Shown here: positions 2,656 to 12,204 of the stretch, piece after piece
Numbering within the stretch: the first letter of the stretch is position 1
Layout: every line of letters begins with the position of its first letter
Origin: a virus
Direction: 5' to 3' (one strand)
DNA: 21,149 nucleotides
Virus record (IMG/VR): IMGVR_UViG_3300021389_000190
Coordinates: 1-21,149 of that record
Notes under the pieces: generated by a model
What the model was told of the DNA's origin: nothing
Seen by the model: only the letters and a program-made list of their open reading frames with translations
The model's database searches: none
Translations under genes and position numbers: made by a program

Positions 2656-2683
2656 TTGACATCTAAACAATTCTTGGTATAAC
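2656..2683 (+). promoter_or_regulatory. Sigma-70-type promoter for the capsid gene
   Basis: A perfect -35 box TTGACA at 2656-2661 begins at the first base after the scaffold stop codon. After a 16-bp spacer comes the -10 box TATAAC (2678-2683), preceded by TGG, which makes an extended -10. Transcription would start near 2690 and give the capsid gene a leader of about 210 bases. A dedicated promoter here would raise capsid output above that of upstream genes. The match is read directly from the sequence; activity is inferred. Confidence 0.65.
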
Positions 2684-2693
2684 TAAGGGTATT

Positions 2694-2728
2694 GTAACGG
2701 AAGCCCCTTTATGGACACCTTCCGTTAC
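2694..2728 (+). promoter_or_regulatory. Perfect inverted repeat (hairpin) in the capsid leader
   Basis: GTAACGGAAG (2694-2703) and CTTCCGTTAC (2719-2728) are perfect 10-bp complementary arms around a 15-base loop. There is no T-run after it, so it is not a standard intrinsic terminator. It lies just downstream of the predicted start of transcription, where it could protect the 5' end of the capsid message or act as an attenuator. A 9-codon reading frame (2711-2740) begins in the loop and runs through the right arm, and its possible ribosome site GGAAG lies inside the left arm. Confidence 0.6.
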
Positions 2729-2737
2729 TCCTCCCCT

Positions 2738-2762
2738 TAATACGACTGGGGAATATTCCCCA
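2738..2762 (+). promoter_or_regulatory. T7-promoter-like decamer abutting a 16-bp palindrome
   Basis: TAATACGACT (2738-2747) is identical to the -17 to -8 recognition segment of the coliphage T7 RNA polymerase promoter. The T7 initiation part is not conserved: the next bases are GGGGAATA instead of CACTATA. Overlapping its last base is a perfect palindrome TGGGGAATATTCCCCA (2747-2762), which could fold as a short hairpin or bind a dimeric protein. No phage RNA polymerase gene is visible in the window, so promoter function is unproven and the match may be chance. Confidence 0.3.
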
Positions 2763-2825
2763 TACAAATAGCTACAAGAAACAAAGACAACCTGTGAAGC
2801 TAGCCCTCGTCATGTCGAGACACCT

Positions 2826-2853
2826 AGTGTATCAGCCCTTCGTTCAGTGTATC
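2826..2853 (+). repeat. Pair of 8-bp direct repeats spaced two helical turns
   Basis: AGTGTATC occurs at 2826-2833 and again at 2846-2853, exactly 20 bp apart, in the leader between the palindrome and the capsid ribosome site. Spacing of about two turns would put both copies on the same DNA face, as expected for a protein-binding site. The repeats are short and could be chance. Otherwise I see nothing specific in 2763-2890. Confidence 0.25.
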
Positions 2854-2903
2854 GCTATTGTCCTTAAAACTCTAGCCATCTATACTCAACAAGGAGAAAT
2901 CAC

Positions 2904-3977
2904 ATGGCATTCGCATCCGCAGCAGGGCACGGTAACCTACCCAATGGTAACTTTAGCTCCGTAATCTATTCGAAGAAAGTACAACTTGCTTTCCGTAAGT
3001 CCACAGTTTGTGGCGACATCACTAACTCTGACTACTTCGGTGAAATCTCTGCTCAAGGTGATACAGTGCGTATTATCAAAGAGCCTGAAATCTCCGTAAG
3101 CCCTTATGCACGTGGCACACAAGTTACTGCACAAGACCTGGACGACGAGGACTTCTCTCTGGTCATCGACAAAGCTAACTACTTTGCTTTCAAGACTGAC
3201 GACATTGAGACTGCACACTCGCACGTTAACTTCATGGACTTGGCAACTAACCGCGCTGCTTACCGTTTGGCTGACAACCACGACCAGGAAGTTCTTGCTT
3301 ACTTGTCCGGTTATAAGCCTTCCGCTGTACACACAGTAGGCGACGCTGTTAACACAGAGACTAACGGTACTAAAGCTGTAATCACTGCTGGTTCTGATGA
3401 ATTGCTTTCGAGCATGAAGTTGAACAAAGGTAAGTTCGGTAACATCACGACTGCTTCTGCTGGCGATCACTCGATCCCTGTAGCTGCTCGCCTCCCTGGT
3501 GCGACTGCTCTGCCAACAGCTTACGCTTCACCTGTCATGCTTATCAACCGTATGGGTCGTTTGCTCGATCAACAGAACGTTGACAAAGCTGGTCGTTGGT
3601 TGGTTATTGATCCTATCATGATGGAAATCCTGATGGACGAAGATTCACGTTTCTTGAACGCTGACTTCGGTGACTCTGGCGCATTGCGCAATGGTCTGGT
3701 CTTGAACAACTGGAATGGCTTCCGTGTATACCAGTCTAACAACCTTCCTGCCGTTGGCGGTGGTGCTGGTACAACTGGTACAGCTAACCAGAACACTGAC
3801 TATGGTGTTATCGTTGCTGGTCATGACTCCGCTGTAGCTACTGCTGAGCAGATCAACAAGACTGAATCGTATCGTGACCAAGACTCCTTCGCGGATATTG
3901 TTCGTGGTATGCACCTCTACGGTCGTAAGATTCTTCGTCCTGAAGCTCTTGTAACCGCTAAGTACAACCTCGCGTAA
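2904..3977 (+). CDS. Major capsid protein (HK97-fold expected)
   Basis: A 357-aa protein following the scaffold, with a strong ribosome site AAGGAG at 2891-2896. The N-terminal half carries the pattern common to this coat family: a YSKKVQLAFRKSTV-type opening (about residues 25-37), GDTVRI, then QDLDDEDFSLVIDKANYFAF (about residues 74-93). The C-terminal half has GRWLVIDPIMMEILMDEDSR, typical of the nucleotide-free HK97-type shell proteins, and ends with YGRKILRPEALV. It forms the icosahedral shell around the genome. Codon choice is visibly more restricted here than in the flanking genes (many NNC codons such as AAC and GAC), as expected for the most abundant virion protein. It is followed after 19 bp by a decoration-like gene. 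Confidence 0.9.
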   Translation: MAFASAAGHGNLPNGNFSSVIYSKKVQLAFRKSTVCGDITNSDYFGEISAQGDTVRIIKEPEISVSPYARGTQVTAQDLDDEDFSLVIDKANYFAFKTDDIETAHSHVNFMDLATNRAAYRLADNHDQEVLAYLSGYKPSAVHTVGDAVNTETNGTKAVITAGSDELLSSMKLNKGKFGNITTASAGDHSIPVAARLPGATALPTAYASPVMLINRMGRLLDQQNVDKAGRWLVIDPIMMEILMDEDSRFLNADFGDSGALRNGLVLNNWNGFRVYQSNNLPAVGGGAGTTGTANQNTDYGVIVAGHDSAVATAEQINKTESYRDQDSFADIVRGMHLYGRKILRPEALVTAKYNLA

Positions 3978-4424: not shown

Positions 4425-4458
4425 TGGGGTATCCTTAGGGGTACCCCATCAACTTTTT
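4425..4458 (+). terminator. Terminator hairpin after the capsid gene pair
   Basis: TGGGGTA (4425-4431) pairs with TACCCCA (4442-4448) around a 10-base loop. A TTTTT run begins five bases later (4454-4458). The T-run is slightly distant, so termination is probably partial. That would lower expression of the downstream tail genes relative to the abundant capsid and decoration proteins. Confidence 0.6.
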
Positions 4459-7603: not shown

Positions 7604-7927
7604 ATGAGCTTAAAATGGCCCCCTAAAGATAAAGATGAAACACTGGACTACAGTCTAGATTGGTCTAGAGCTTTGGCTTCTGGAGAAACTATTAGTTCTG
7701 TCTCTTGGTCTATTGTAGATGATAATGACGATAAAGTATCTTTTGGCTTAGGTCAAACTGTAGAGGGCCTTAAAAACCTTACACAGACTAATACAAGCAG
7801 TGTTGCTACCATCTTTCTAAGCTCTGGTACAAACAACAAAGAGTATAAGCTCTTCTGCCTTATCTCAACTAACCAAGGCCGCTCAAAAGAAAGAGCAGTA
7901 GTAGTCCGTATTCGGGAGTATAACTAA
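7604..7927 (+). CDS. Fibre-tail adaptor-like protein
   Basis: A 107-aa protein starting MSLKWPPKDKDETLDYSLDW. The KWPPKDKDE and LDYSLDWS pattern, followed by ISSVSWSI and a terminal beta segment ending in RIREYN, is what I know from small proteins called phage fibre-tail adaptors. These join fibres to the tail and are encoded next to the head-tail adaptor. It is packed between neighbours with no gap: it begins at the base after the previous stop and its TAA overlaps the next ATG by one base. The ribosome site for the next gene (GGGAG) lies inside this gene. Confidence 0.55.
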   Translation: MSLKWPPKDKDETLDYSLDWSRALASGETISSVSWSIVDDNDDKVSFGLGQTVEGLKNLTQTNTSSVATIFLSSGTNNKEYKLFCLISTNQGRSKERAVVVRIREYN

Positions 7928-8619
7928 TGTCCGAGTATAACTTCCTAGGGCTTGTAAACGACGTCAACCGTAGACTTAACGAAGTTGAGTTAACCTCTAC
8001 TAACTTTGTGTCGTCTGTAGGCTTTTATGCCACTGCAAAGGACGCTGTCAACTCCGCTATCCTTGAGATAAATCAGCAACAGTTTGAATGGCCCTTTAAC
8101 CATGTCACTCAAGAAGAAGATTTGATTGAGGGTGATGTAAGATACTTTATCCCTCGTGACGTTAAGTCTCTTGATATGGACTCTTTTAGACTCATTCGTG
8201 ATGATGATCTATGTAACAACACTGTAAGACTCAAGCTTATCTACTATGAAGAGTATCTTGACAAACATCTTGACAGTGAGTATAATAGCTCAGAGAGTTT
8301 AAGAGGACTTCCTAAGTATGTCTTTAGGTCTCCCTCTATGGAGTATGGTGTTGTACCTGCCCCAGATAAAGCTTACCGTATTGCCTATGAGTACTACAGA
8401 AATCCTACTAACTTGATCTTGCACTCTGATGTACCTTCTATCCCTGAAGAGTTTCGTTATGTTATTGTTGATGGTGCTATGGTACATGCTCACGCATTCC
8501 GTGGTGACACAGAGAGTTCTCAGTTTAGTGCGATGAAGTTTAAAGAGGGTATGAAGTCTCTCCGTAGCATTTACATCAATCGTTATGAATACGTCCGCTC
8601 TACTGTAAGGTCTTTTTAA
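7927..8619 (+). CDS. Head-tail adaptor (gp4-like / tail tubular A-like) protein
   Basis: A 230-aa, mainly helical protein directly before the nozzle gene, the same order as the adaptor and nozzle genes of short-tailed phages. The N-terminus (LVNDVNRRLNEVEL, then AVNSAILEINQQQFEWPFN) and the segment EGDVRYFIPRDVKSLDMDSF resemble adaptors that dock under the portal and close the packaged head. The C-terminus (GAMVHAHAFRGD and further on KEGMKSLR) is helical. It starts in a one-base overlap with the upstream gene and ends in a one-base overlap with the nozzle gene. Assignment is from pattern and gene order; no alignment could be run. Confidence 0.7.
   Translation: MSEYNFLGLVNDVNRRLNEVELTSTNFVSSVGFYATAKDAVNSAILEINQQQFEWPFNHVTQEEDLIEGDVRYFIPRDVKSLDMDSFRLIRDDDLCNNTVRLKLIYYEEYLDKHLDSEYNSSESLRGLPKYVFRSPSMEYGVVPAPDKAYRIAYEYYRNPTNLILHSDVPSIPEEFRYVIVDGAMVHAHAFRGDTESSQFSAMKFKEGMKSLRSIYINRYEYVRSTVRSF
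8258..8286 (+). promoter_or_regulatory. Full consensus sigma-70 promoter inside the adaptor gene
   Basis: TTGACA (8258-8263), 17 bp, then TATAAT (8281-8286): both boxes match the bacterial sigma-70 consensus perfectly and the spacing is optimal. A second TTGACA (8269-8274) lies within the spacer. Transcription would begin near 8293 and drive the nozzle, second fibre, chaperone and acyltransferase genes. It lies in coding sequence for LDKHLDSEYN, so codon constraints could produce it by chance, but a full 12-of-12 match is rare. Confidence 0.55.
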
Positions 8620-10157
8620 TGCCCTCACAATGGCAAACTTTCCCTGTCGAGTTTAGAGGTGGTCTCGTCTCTAACATGAACCCTTTGCAACAGGGTACTA
8701 ACATGGTGGGATCAGCAACCTTTTTACAAAACTTTGAACCTTCAAAAGAGGGTGGCTATAAGAAGGTACTTGGCTACGAGAAGTACATTGCAGGTCAAGT
8801 GGCTGGCTCTGGCTTGATGCTTGGTGTTAAAGTAGTCAATGCTGGTGAAGTAATTGCAGTAAGAGAGAACGCCAGTAACGTATCAGAGTATCACATCAAC
8901 ACTGGTGCTACTTGGACTTCTCTGGGTGCAGCAGCTTTGCTTGGTGGTCGCGTTAAGGCAGTAGACTTTAACTTCGATGGTAACCATAAGATTGTTTTTG
9001 TTGACGGGGTAAACTCTCCTGCTATCTTTAACGACACAACGAACACACTGACATTCCCTACTCTGCCTTCTGACCTGACTGGTTCTAGCCACGTATCCTC
9101 GTACAAGAAAGCTATCTTTCTGGCTAATGGAGCTAACCTACATTTCTCTGCTCCTTTTGACGAGTCAGATTTTACTCCTGCTAATGGTGCTGGGGTAATC
9201 AATGTAGGCCATACCATCACAGGCCTTATTGTCTTTAGAGACCAGTTGGTAATCTTTAGCCGTAATAAGATTCAAAGACTTGTAGGTAACAGCGTAGGAG
9301 ACTTCCAGCTTGTACCTATTGCAGAAGACATTGGTTGTCTGCATGGTGAGACCATCCAAGAAGTTGGTGGTGACGTTATGTTCATGGCTGCTGATGGTCT
9401 TAGACTATTAAGTGCCACTGAACGGATTGGTGACTTTGGGCTTGAAGTTGCATCTGCTCCAATCAACAAAGACGCCTTAGCCTTTATCAACAGCACTCAG
9501 ACGTTCTCCAGTTATGTGCTGAGAGAGAAAGCTCAGTACCGTGTGTTTGCCTACAGTCCTTCTGTAGGTGCTGACGTAGCTAAGGGTATTATTGGCACTA
9601 CGTTCTCTGACCAAGGTGCTGCTCAGATTAACTGGGCTACAACAAGCGGCTACAAAGTTTACGTAGCTGATGGTCGTTATGTCCCAGGACAAGAGCTGAC
9701 AGTCTTTGCAAATGATGATGGTTATGTCTATCGGGCAGAGGTGGGTAGTAGCCGTGATGGTGGTATTATTGAGGCTATCTACAAGTCCCCTTTTATGCCT
9801 ATCAATGACCCTCAGGTACGTAAGACATTCTACAAGATGTCTCTGTACGTAGAGACCGCAGGTAACTTCGCTATTAACCTGAACCTAGACTTTGATTTGT
9901 TTAAGACAGATAACTACACAGGTGGACTTGCTAATACTATTAGCCTTGGAAGTACTGGCTCTGGTGTATTTATCTACGGTGCACCTAACACCCTCTATGG
10001 TACAACTGTCTATGGTGCTCCTTTGGACAATGTCTACAATACAAATGTAATCGGTAGCGGCAAGACTGTTTCTTTCCGTATCGAAGATAAAACAACTAAC
10101 CCCTCTTTCAGCTTAGACACTGCTGTTTTAGAGTTTAGAACTAACGAGAGAAAGTAA
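8619..10157 (+). CDS. Tail nozzle / packaged-DNA stabilisation protein (P22 gp10-like)
   Basis: A 512-aa protein beginning with the typical nozzle opening (WQTFPVEFRGGLVSNMNPLQ, then ATFLQNFEPSKEGGYKKVLG). The body consists of repeated beta-blade units (GNHKIVFVDGVNSP, SYKKAIFLANGANLHFSAP, VFRDQLVIFSRNKIQRLVG, VGGDVMFMAADGLRLLSATE), as in the beta-propeller nozzle proteins of P22-like tails. These plug the lower end of the tail and help hold the packaged genome. Its ATG overlaps the adaptor stop (TAATG), and the second fibre gene starts five bases after its own stop. The C-terminal 130 residues are a separate beta domain (YGAPNTLYGTTVYGAP), possibly a fibre-contact part. Confidence 0.8.
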   Translation: MPSQWQTFPVEFRGGLVSNMNPLQQGTNMVGSATFLQNFEPSKEGGYKKVLGYEKYIAGQVAGSGLMLGVKVVNAGEVIAVRENASNVSEYHINTGATWTSLGAAALLGGRVKAVDFNFDGNHKIVFVDGVNSPAIFNDTTNTLTFPTLPSDLTGSSHVSSYKKAIFLANGANLHFSAPFDESDFTPANGAGVINVGHTITGLIVFRDQLVIFSRNKIQRLVGNSVGDFQLVPIAEDIGCLHGETIQEVGGDVMFMAADGLRLLSATERIGDFGLEVASAPINKDALAFINSTQTFSSYVLREKAQYRVFAYSPSVGADVAKGIIGTTFSDQGAAQINWATTSGYKVYVADGRYVPGQELTVFANDDGYVYRAEVGSSRDGGIIEAIYKSPFMPINDPQVRKTFYKMSLYVETAGNFAINLNLDFDLFKTDNYTGGLANTISLGSTGSGVFIYGAPNTLYGTTVYGAPLDNVYNTNVIGSGKTVSFRIEDKTTNPSFSLDTAVLEFRTNERK

Positions 10158-10161
10158 TTAG

Positions 10162-11415
10162 ATGGCTGGATATGTACGTCAAGATACCTCCAATAACATT
10201 GCTAACGGCTCTGTTGTGGATGCAGACGACCTAGATAATGAATTCGATGCTGTTGCAACTGCCTTTAACACCTCTACTGGACACACCCACGATGGTTCTA
10301 CAGCCGAGGGTGCACCCATTACTGTCGTAGGTCCTGCTCAAGATGTTGTTGTAGGTTCTGGCTCTATTGCACCTAAGACTGACTCTGCTTACGAACTTGG
10401 GACAACAAGTTTGCGTTGGTCTACAGGTTACCTAGATGATCTTATTGTCACTGCAGATACTACTATCGGTGGTGCTGTTACTGTTGCTGACACACTTGCG
10501 GCTGGATCAACTACTATCACGGGTGATATTACAGTAACAGGCACAGTAGATGGTCGTGATATAGCTGCGGATGGCACTAAGCTTGACGGAATTGAAACAG
10601 GGGCTACAGCAGATCAAACTAACGCTGAGATTAAAGTAGCCTACGAAGCTAATGCAGACACTAATGCTTTTACTGACGCTGAAAAGACTAAGCTAAGTGG
10701 TGTTGAAGCTCTAGCAGACGTAACTGACACAGCTAATGTGACTGCTGCTGGTGCCTTGATGGATTCCGAAGTAGACGCAGATATTAAAACTCTGAGCCTA
10801 CCAGCTAACACCACTATCAGTGCCTTTGGTGCTACACTCGTAGAAGACGCTGATGCTTCCACAGCTAAAGCCACTCTTGGTGTTGTCATCGGTACCGACG
10901 TACAGGCTTATGATGCTAATCTTCCTGCTTGGCCTTCTACTGTAGACGCTACAGAGGTTGGCTATTTGAACGGTGTTACATCAGCTATTCAAACACAGCT
11001 AAACTCCAAAGCACCAGACAATGAACTGACCCAGATTGAGGTTGAAAACGACACGTCAACGGTATTCGGGCAGGTATCTGGGCAACGGTTGGCGCAGGCT
11101 GTGGCGGCGAATACCCCCATCCCATTGCATGGGGCGGTTGGGTCTTACGTTTGGGCAACGATTGCAGACTCTACTGGCGCAGCATCGCAATTTGTTTTCG
11201 GAGATACTTACGCTGGCTCAGGGCTTTACCCAGCGGGTTTTGCGTCTTTTTCTGCTCTTTCAGCACCTCAAGTCATGGTATATGCGGAGTCTGCAAATCT
11301 AGGCATGAAAGATTCAGCCGTATCTGCATTAAGTGGCACTTGGCGGTGCATGGGGCAAACCCCAGAGTTTAGTTATGATGAAATGCCTGTTACTCTTTTT
11401 CTGAGGATTGTGTAA
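10162..11415 (+). CDS. Tail fibre protein 2
   Basis: A 417-aa modular fibre. The N-terminus has the tail-attachment pattern seen in many fibres (YVRQDTSNNIANGSVVDADD, LDNEFDAV, then HTHDGSTAEGAPI). The segment YELGTTSLRWSTGYLDDL is followed by Thr/Ala-rich beta repeats and shaft motifs GTKLDGIETGATADQTN and [19 protein letters not shown] (about residues 175-206), the latter shared with fibre 1. The C-terminal 120 residues (STVFGQVSGQRLAQAV to LSGTWRCMGQTPEFS and VTLFLRIV) form a distinct tip domain whose DNA, from about 11035, uses more G and C. The stop overlaps the chaperone start (TAATG). Confidence 0.8.
   Translation: MAGYVRQDTSNNIANGSVVDADDLDNEFDAVATAFNTSTGHTHDGSTAEGAPITVVGPAQDVVVGSGSIAPKTDSAYELGTTSLRWSTGYLDDLIVTADTTIGGAVTVADTLAAGSTTITGDITVTGTVDGRDIAADGTKLDGIETGATADQTNAEIKVAYEANADTNAFTDAEKTKLSGVEALADVTDTANVTAAGALMDSEVDADIKTLSLPANTTISAFGATLVEDADASTAKATLGVVIGTDVQAYDANLPAWPSTVDATEVGYLNGVTSAIQTQLNSKAPDNELTQIEVENDTSTVFGQVSGQRLAQAVAANTPIPLHGAVGSYVWATIADSTGAASQFVFGDTYAGSGLYPAGFASFSALSAPQVMVYAESANLGMKDSAVSALSGTWRCMGQTPEFSYDEMPVTLFLRIV
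10747..10763 (+). repeat. 17-bp sequence shared with fibre 1 (copy B)
   Basis: Second copy of the 17-bp identity at 5246-5262, at the end of the shaft motif and upstream of the GC-richer tip region of fibre 2. Confidence 0.7.
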
Positions 11416-11780
11416 TGAAATATAAAAACGCAAAGTTCACAGCGCAACCAAACGTTATTGACTGTGAGATTGAACATCCCGTTCATGGTTGGATACCTTT
11501 TACCGCTAATCCCAATGACGTTGACCCTTTGGGTGCCCAAGTTTTTAACGCGGCAAAAAATGGTGCGTCAGCATACGTTGAACCACCAGTTGACCTCATA
11601 GCCCTCGTCACCGCCGCCCGCACCCAACGCGACAGACTCCTAAGCCAGTCCGACTGGACGCAGGTATCAGACGCTACTGTTGACCAAACTGCATGGGCAA
11701 CCTACCGCCATGCGTTGCGTGATGTACCAGCACAAGCGGGATTCCCCGAAAACATTGATTGGCCTGTCGCGCCGGAGTAA
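11415..11780 (+). CDS. Tail-assembly chaperone 2 (Phage_tail_APC-like)
   Basis: A 121-aa protein coupled to fibre 2 by a TAATG overlap, with TGAGGA as ribosome site. The C-terminal signature matches the first chaperone: RTQRDRLLSQSDW, then AWATYRHALRDVPAQAGFP and WPVAP (about residues 68-120). The N-terminal half differs (IEHPVHGWIPFTANPNDVDP), as expected when each chaperone serves its own fibre tip. Its DNA is noticeably GC-rich around 11600-11780 with many NNC codons, unlike the following gene, so it looks like part of an exchanged tip-plus-chaperone unit. Confidence 0.8.
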   Translation: MKYKNAKFTAQPNVIDCEIEHPVHGWIPFTANPNDVDPLGAQVFNAAKNGASAYVEPPVDLIALVTAARTQRDRLLSQSDWTQVSDATVDQTAWATYRHALRDVPAQAGFPENIDWPVAPE

Positions 11781-11784
11781 CTCT

Positions 11785-12204
11785 TTGATCATAGACTATA
11801 ACAAAGCTTTGGATAATGCCAGGTTCTTGTTCCTAAGTAGTGAACACCATAAGAACTTCGACTCTAATGAAATCTACTCTTACCTAGTTTTACCTTGCAA
11901 AAAGAATGCAATCAGGTTATACTACCGTGAGGGTAAACCTATTGGTCTTGTCACTTGGTGTTGGTTAACACCGGAGAAGGCTAAAGACTTTGTAAACTTC
12001 GAGTACCTTCTTCTAGAGTCCGACTACGAGAAGAGAGAAGGTACTGAGCTTTGGGGCTTAGACTTTATTACTCCATACGGTGATGCACGTAAAGTCTTCT
12101 CCTTGATCAAAGAAGAGTACAAGAATGTTTATGGTGAAGAAACCAAGGTGAAGTGGCGAAGAGCTAAAGACCCTCTGAAAGTACATGAGAGAAAACTATG
12201 TTAA
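11785..12204 (+). CDS. HlyC-like toxin-activating lysine acyltransferase
   Basis: A 139-aa protein aligned by eye along most of its length with E. coli HlyC, the acyltransferase that moves a fatty acid from acyl-carrier protein to internal lysines of RTX toxins. SSEHHKNF (residues 18-25) matches HlyC SSPLHRNW, so His22 aligns with catalytic His23. REGKPIGLVTWCWL (48-61) matches RDNYPVAYCSWANL, and LWGLDFITPYGD (89-100) matches KWFIDWIAPFGD, so Asp93 aligns with catalytic Asp92. It is shorter than HlyC (about 170 aa), lacking mainly the C-terminus. The start is TTG at 11785, with GGAG seven bases upstream overlapping the chaperone stop; an in-frame ATG at 11680 would overlap the chaperone by 101 bases. 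Codon use is AT-rich against the GC-rich chaperone before it. No RTX repeat protein is visible, so the substrate is unknown. Confidence 0.85.
   Translation: MIIDYNKALDNARFLFLSSEHHKNFDSNEIYSYLVLPCKKNAIRLYYREGKPIGLVTWCWLTPEKAKDFVNFEYLLLESDYEKREGTELWGLDFITPYGDARKVFSLIKEEYKNVYGEETKVKWRRAKDPLKVHERKLC

Follow-up and report, generated by a model that had tools for sequence, protein, structure and literature searches.

A perfect consensus sigma-70 promoter inside a protein-coding gene raises the question of whether selection keeps it as a promoter, or whether the codons of the protein happen to spell it. The case considered here lies in a single virus record of 21,149 bases with its long open reading frames on the + strand, the whole of which was analysed and is referred to below as the window. 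The phage is of the HMO-2011 type and marine, and the protein encoded by the adaptor gene that holds the site (Table 1) shares 59.8% identity with its counterpart in CRP-345, 56.7% with CRP-603, 54.3% with CRP-207 and 46.6% with HMO-2011. Both boxes agree with the consensus (12/12 letters, spacer 17), which places the site within the sigma-70 definition of TTGACA and TATAAT set 16-18 bases apart. A first-pass annotation had described it as a perfect match within a coding region, and this is confirmed: a search for TTGACA-N15..19-TATAAT finds it as the sole exact match in the record. The window sequence has no TGn ahead of the -10 box at 8281, and a second TTGACA at 8270-8275 is unfit as a -35 box because it lies 5 bases from the -10 box, which is too close.

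Table 1. Positions in the window of the focal site, the coat-gene promoter and the genes discussed in the text.
Feature	Position	Strand	Basis or remark
Coat-gene promoter, intergenic	2656..2683	+	TTGACA-16-TATAACTA, TATAAC(TA); also in relatives
Major coat protein gene	2904..3977	+	phrog_267, E 8.7e-64
SU10-type head-tail adaptor gene, holds the focal site	7927..8619	+	PF24175, E 4.5e-19; phrog_10775 tail protein
-35 box TTGACA	8258..8263	+	codons (C)TT GAC A(AA) = L111-D112-K113; 21/69 representatives vs 3.6 expected
17-base spacer	8264..8280	+	final base G, from E118 codon GAG
-10 box TATAAT	8281..8286	+	codons TAT AAT = Y119-N120; full hexamer without excess over codon use
Predicted transcription start	8293	+	inferred, ~7 bases past the -10 box
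Nozzle-like structural protein gene	8619..10157	+	phrog_5107 (labelled amidase), weak structural/head-closure matches; no Pfam match
Tail fibre gene	10162..11415	+	phrog_24456
Tail assembly chaperone gene	11415..11780	+	PF16778
HlyC-like acyltransferase gene	11788..12204	+	PF02794, E 5.7e-13; start codon uncertain

The expectation of 0.003 matches originally attached to the site agrees with a hand count that takes all bases as equally frequent and allows a single spacing (2 x 21149 / 4^12 = 0.0025), but such a count ignores the protein motif. Dinucleotide shuffles of the window gave 0.01 matches with spacers of 15-19. The fitting null for a perfect match is synonymous codon shuffling, in which 3,000 shuffles yielded 0.018 perfect matches per shuffle (1.8%), a value equal to the rate at the focal site alone; given the protein, the site is therefore about a 1-in-55 event. 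The adaptor peptide LDKxxxDxEYN fixes most of the box letters and favours the site. Once the protein is given, there is little surprise in the perfect match by itself, which turns attention to the relatives.

Sequences with the adaptor gene were drawn from five viral-contig searches (four giving their best 80 loci each, in one case out of 586 or more candidates), the CRP-345 and HMO-2011 records and the window, 294 in all with some contigs counted more than once; representatives, the window included, numbered 148, 103 and 69 at 95, 85 and 75% nucleotide identity, respectively. For the set of 69, the expectation was derived from each locus's own codon use. All 12 box letters are present in 5 of the 69 representatives, the window being one of them (0.81 expected), and at least 11 of 12 in 23 (6.36 expected), while 46 score 10/12 or less, so that most relatives are without the site. 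The excess sits in the -35 half: full TTGACA occurs in 21 representatives against 3.64 expected and is thus kept beyond coding need, whereas full TATAAT occurs in 9 against 11.65 expected and is not. Conservation of the boxes at synonymous sites had been proposed in the first-pass annotation as a check on its reading of a real internal promoter. The check bears out the -35 box, which ranks first of 177 codon-pair columns, and fails for the full -10 box, where only GTATAA tracks the -35 box in a post hoc test described below; that reading is thereby supported in part.

The codons behind the -35 box behave unlike the same codons elsewhere. At Leu111-Asp112 in the 103-sequence set, CTT GAC is used in 26/48 and CTT GAT in 2/48, whereas among 1,349 Leu-Asp pairs elsewhere in these loci CTT GAT is the commoner (268 against 147 CTT GAC), and among the 409 of them followed by an A-initial codon the figures are 67 and 40. 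Codon-pair bias was rejected on these grounds as the cause of CTT GAC. Ranked by excess over codon use, the focal codon pair stands first of 177 columns in the 69-sequence set and second of 194 in the 103-sequence set. A quick tree built from the 103 proteins gives it 6 changes, compared to 16.3 with shuffled labels, and its change ratio is the lowest of 120 codon pairs at 30-70% frequency, for which the median ratio is 0.88. When column pairs were ranked by linkage, the two focal codons came first out of 1,426 in an initial set of 59 representatives (p 3e-6) and fourth out of 908 in a stricter set. For the TTGACA state, just 7 changes are counted on the tree (48 rows), which implies few independent events and limited independent evidence. 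We also considered a generally conserved synonymous region and rejected it, given that windows of 3, 5 and 11 codons from residues 111 and 119 rank 55-179 of ~220-228; outside the codon pair, the signal includes only the E118 codon GAG, in sequences with TTGACA (19/21). In a comparison of close pairs from which identical genes had been removed (79 pairs, 16 with TTGACA), the focal Leu and Asp codons were the same in 16/16 each, against 201/236 and 216/240 elsewhere, and the focal Glu codon in 12/16 against 211/242, numbers too small for a conclusion.

For the -10 half, the base at -7 deserves separate treatment, as T is missing from this position in more than 60% of the -10 elements of several Alphaproteobacteria (PMC8407463, available part). 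With -7 ignored, TTGACA-17-TATAA is found in 13/68 against 1.69 expected, first of 7,543 sense sites, and in 0 against 0.57 expected in antisense; this form is kept beyond coding need, a result driven mainly by the -35 half. Comparisons that ignore the tree associate TTGACA with GTATAA (15/24 with it, 12/47 without, p 0.003), with GAG before the -10 box (21/24 vs 27/47, p 0.009) and with TAT in the -10 box (17/24 vs 19/47, p 0.014), the -10 tests having been picked after the coat promoter and the GAG of the TTGACA set had been seen. In the same tree-ignoring comparisons, no association with TTGACA was found for AAT, which holds the -7 base (p 0.44), or for whole TATAAT (9/24 vs 12/47, p 0.22). 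On the tree, the TAT and AAT codons change about like others (ratios 1.03 and 0.92). The 24 closest pairs differing in TTGACA gave 10 for and 3 against GTATAA, and well-supported branches retain only 4 independent pairs, with 1.5 for, 1.5 against and no trend; the corresponding pair tests for AAT (2.0 vs 0.2) and TATAAT (1.7 vs 0.4) were not significant.

A scan of the adaptor, nozzle-like and coat genes for at least 11 of 12 letters, evaluated against codon use, covered 7,473 sense combinations of position, frame and spacer. The focal site tops them all, with 23/68 against 6.4 expected, and the other sense sites sum to 6 (~2.7 expected), the antisense sites to 4 (4.9 expected) and the backward motif to 3 (1.9 expected). 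Over whole loci and with another shuffle, non-focal sense coding sites numbered 14 against ~5 and antisense coding sites 4 against ~7; caution is needed with this sense excess, which points to additional internal promoters or else to a null that underestimates the expectation somewhat. In three loci (L034, L132, L066), perfect sense-strand matches also follow the homologous -35 start at a distance of 1,631-1,659 bases, and a fourth (L103) has one 696 bases past the start of the adaptor match. These matches lie in or near the nozzle-like gene where the focal site is absent, and are possibly replacement promoters.

The promoter usage of the group can be judged from the coat gene. Its promoter begins right after the stop of the ORF at 1741-2655, 248 bases before the coat start, and lies between the coat gene and the preceding gene in the window and in relatives. 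A search that tolerated no more than a single mismatch in TTGAC and TATAA, called for a stop-like triplet near the site and left -7 free found it in 38 of 103 loci, not all of which extend that far; the spacer is 16 in 31 of these 38 sites and -7 is C in 36. Near-consensus sites that are intergenic or at gene edges number 26 on the + strand and 0 on the - strand (69 loci, 24,058 intergenic bases). This sense-only distribution, together with the clear coat promoter, indicates that the group uses TTGACA/TATAAC boxes. By a matrix built on the group's coat promoters, the focal site scores 10.1 and comes third on the + strand, compared to 30.1 for the window's coat promoter, and one - strand site scores higher than the focal site, at 12.5. 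With a spacer of 17 and TATAATAG, the focal site falls outside the coat-promoter class, which has a spacer of 16 and TATAACTA. The coat promoters favour C at -7 more strictly than would be expected from the available part of PMC8407463, where the bases at -7 are about equally common in Alphaproteobacteria. A leader of ~210 bases is predicted between coat promoter and coat start (window 2656-2903), and in some relatives inverted repeats were seen by eye over the coat-promoter boxes, as if an operator were there. The idea that an internal promoter occurs where other genes part the coat and adaptor genes was rejected: the coat gene was located in 60/103 loci, and the coat-adaptor distance in the 12 that carry TTGACA (median 2,234) is similar to that in the 48 that lack it (median 2,313; p 0.76).

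Searches for a polymerase or sigma factor of the phage's own covered 10 records. Sigma70_r2 had no match in any of them and Sigma70_r4 a single one below the cut-off (E 2e-4, in G002), with working positive controls, and the phage-type RNA polymerase PF00940 matched 0/10, a result that is no proof of absence since the control genomes were silent too. The host polymerase is the likely reader of the site, and the host is probably alphaproteobacterial, like those of the nearest named phages. Eight cultured relatives were examined, out of 29 phage records in which a relative had been found. CRP-603 and CRP-207 carry TTGACA-17-TATAAC at the focal codons, as well as a coat promoter with 11/12 boxes and a spacer of 16 that precedes the coat start by 220 and 233 bases, and the focal site is absent from the other six (CRP-345, HMO-2011, CRP-235, CRP-738, CRP-212 and CRP-3). 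As to the genes that would be served, the names given in the first-pass annotation hold by family matches for the adaptor containing the site, the fibre and the acyltransferase, while the nozzle at 8619-10157 can be suggested from position and weak structural matches.

Taking these results together, we lean, if not strongly, towards an internal sigma-70 promoter that serves the tail genes and is kept by selection; this is the best account, with transcription inferred from the sequence. In some relatives, the -35 half is kept by codon choices beyond the need of the protein, and the site is therefore probably a real internal start for the tail genes. The adaptor motif LDKxxxDxEYN would happen to permit both boxes, and in part of the phage group the statistics show that selection keeps those synonymous choices that spell TTGACA, whereas a looser constraint on GTATAA is suggested by the post hoc comparison. 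A host housekeeping RNA polymerase of the sigma-70 type, probably alphaproteobacterial, would read 8258-8286 and start a second late transcript at ~8293, behind the coat-gene promoter at 2656, and this would add to the transcripts of the genes for the nozzle-like protein, the fibre, the chaperone and the acyltransferase. The last -10 base may be free since many alphaproteobacterial sigma-70 promoters are without T there (PMC8407463, available part), should this carry over to these phages. More tentatively, and with somewhat less than an even chance of being right, we propose a late promoter embedded in the adaptor motif YLDKxxxDxEYN of a dominant marine phage group, its -35 box kept by synonymous selection and its -7 base drifting as the alphaproteobacterial RNA polymerase tolerates any base, which would make the tail transcript separately adjustable in each lineage.

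The alternative that ranks second, and which we regard as rather unlikely, is that the boxes are a by-product of the protein, spelled by the conserved LDKxxxDxEYN, ordinary codons and shared descent, with no purposeful transcription. Codon shuffles do recreate the match at the focal site, which alone holds 6.4 of the 9.1 matches expected in the scan; TATAAT is without excess, TTGACA is clustered in few clades with its 7 changes, synonymous changes remove the site in relatives, and other sense coding sites also exceed the codon null. Against it stand the excess of TTGACA (21 vs 3.6), its first rank of 177 and the stability of the codon pair, the greatest of 120; as other codon pairs in the same gene and on the same tree behave otherwise, shared descent by itself explains the pattern poorly. 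That CTT GAC is selected for another cause, be it the pace or pausing of translation, an RNA element or the site of a DNA-binding protein, with the -10-like bases incidental, would fit an excess in the -35 half and a -10 half that on its own is at background. It is difficult to reconcile with the use of CTT GAC elsewhere, where it is not favoured (40/409 Leu-Asp pairs before an A-initial codon), and with the tracking of GTATAA by TTGACA (15/24 vs 12/47, post hoc), and we rank it last, as improbable.

The focal site is a known kind of promoter in an unusual place. It shares TTGACA, a 17-base spacer and TATAAY with the alphaproteobacterial form of the sigma-70 promoter, and the T or C found at -7 in relatives resembles the -7 variation of alphaproteobacterial promoters (PMC8407463, available part), although this freedom may reflect just the Asn codon; unlike the usual sigma-70 promoter, it lies inside a coding gene, and its promoter activity is a prediction. 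With the HMO-2011-type coat promoter it has in common the -35 box, the first five -10 bases and the strand, and the internal site of CRP-603 and CRP-207 has TATAAC as the coat promoter does; the coat promoter differs in being intergenic, with a spacer of mostly 16 and C at -7, compared to a spacer of 17 and T or C at the internal site. Phage late operons can have promoters inside them, such as the class III promoters of T7, which a phage-encoded polymerase reads. The likeness is that the focal site would boost a portion of a structural operon from within, and the difference lies in that polymerase, for which the ten records here are unmatched by PF00940, with the control silent. We offer the promoter map, consisting of the coat promoter and the internal tail promoter, for testing, with CRP-603 and CRP-207 as cultured phages; it also illustrates that a regulatory site within a gene could be traced through synonymous codon choice.

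Several further observations concern this region and the cultured phages. A terminator-like hairpin (10 pairs, 6 of them G-C) lies at 4425-4448, after the ORF that comes behind the coat gene, and would make a downstream promoter useful. The HlyC-like gene, of the RTX toxin acyltransferase family, sits between tail genes at 11788-12204. The literature searched, by title or the start of the abstract, held no promoter study of HMO-2011; the available text of PMC9038755 has zero mentions of ‘promoter’, as has that of PMC12753301, an infection transcriptome of HTVC022P and HTVC027P. The - strand of HMO-2011 (GU557055.1) contains perfect sigma-70 matches at 31726-31754, between annotated genes 43 and 42, and at 53368-53396, both with TGG before TATAAT, that is, with an extended -10.
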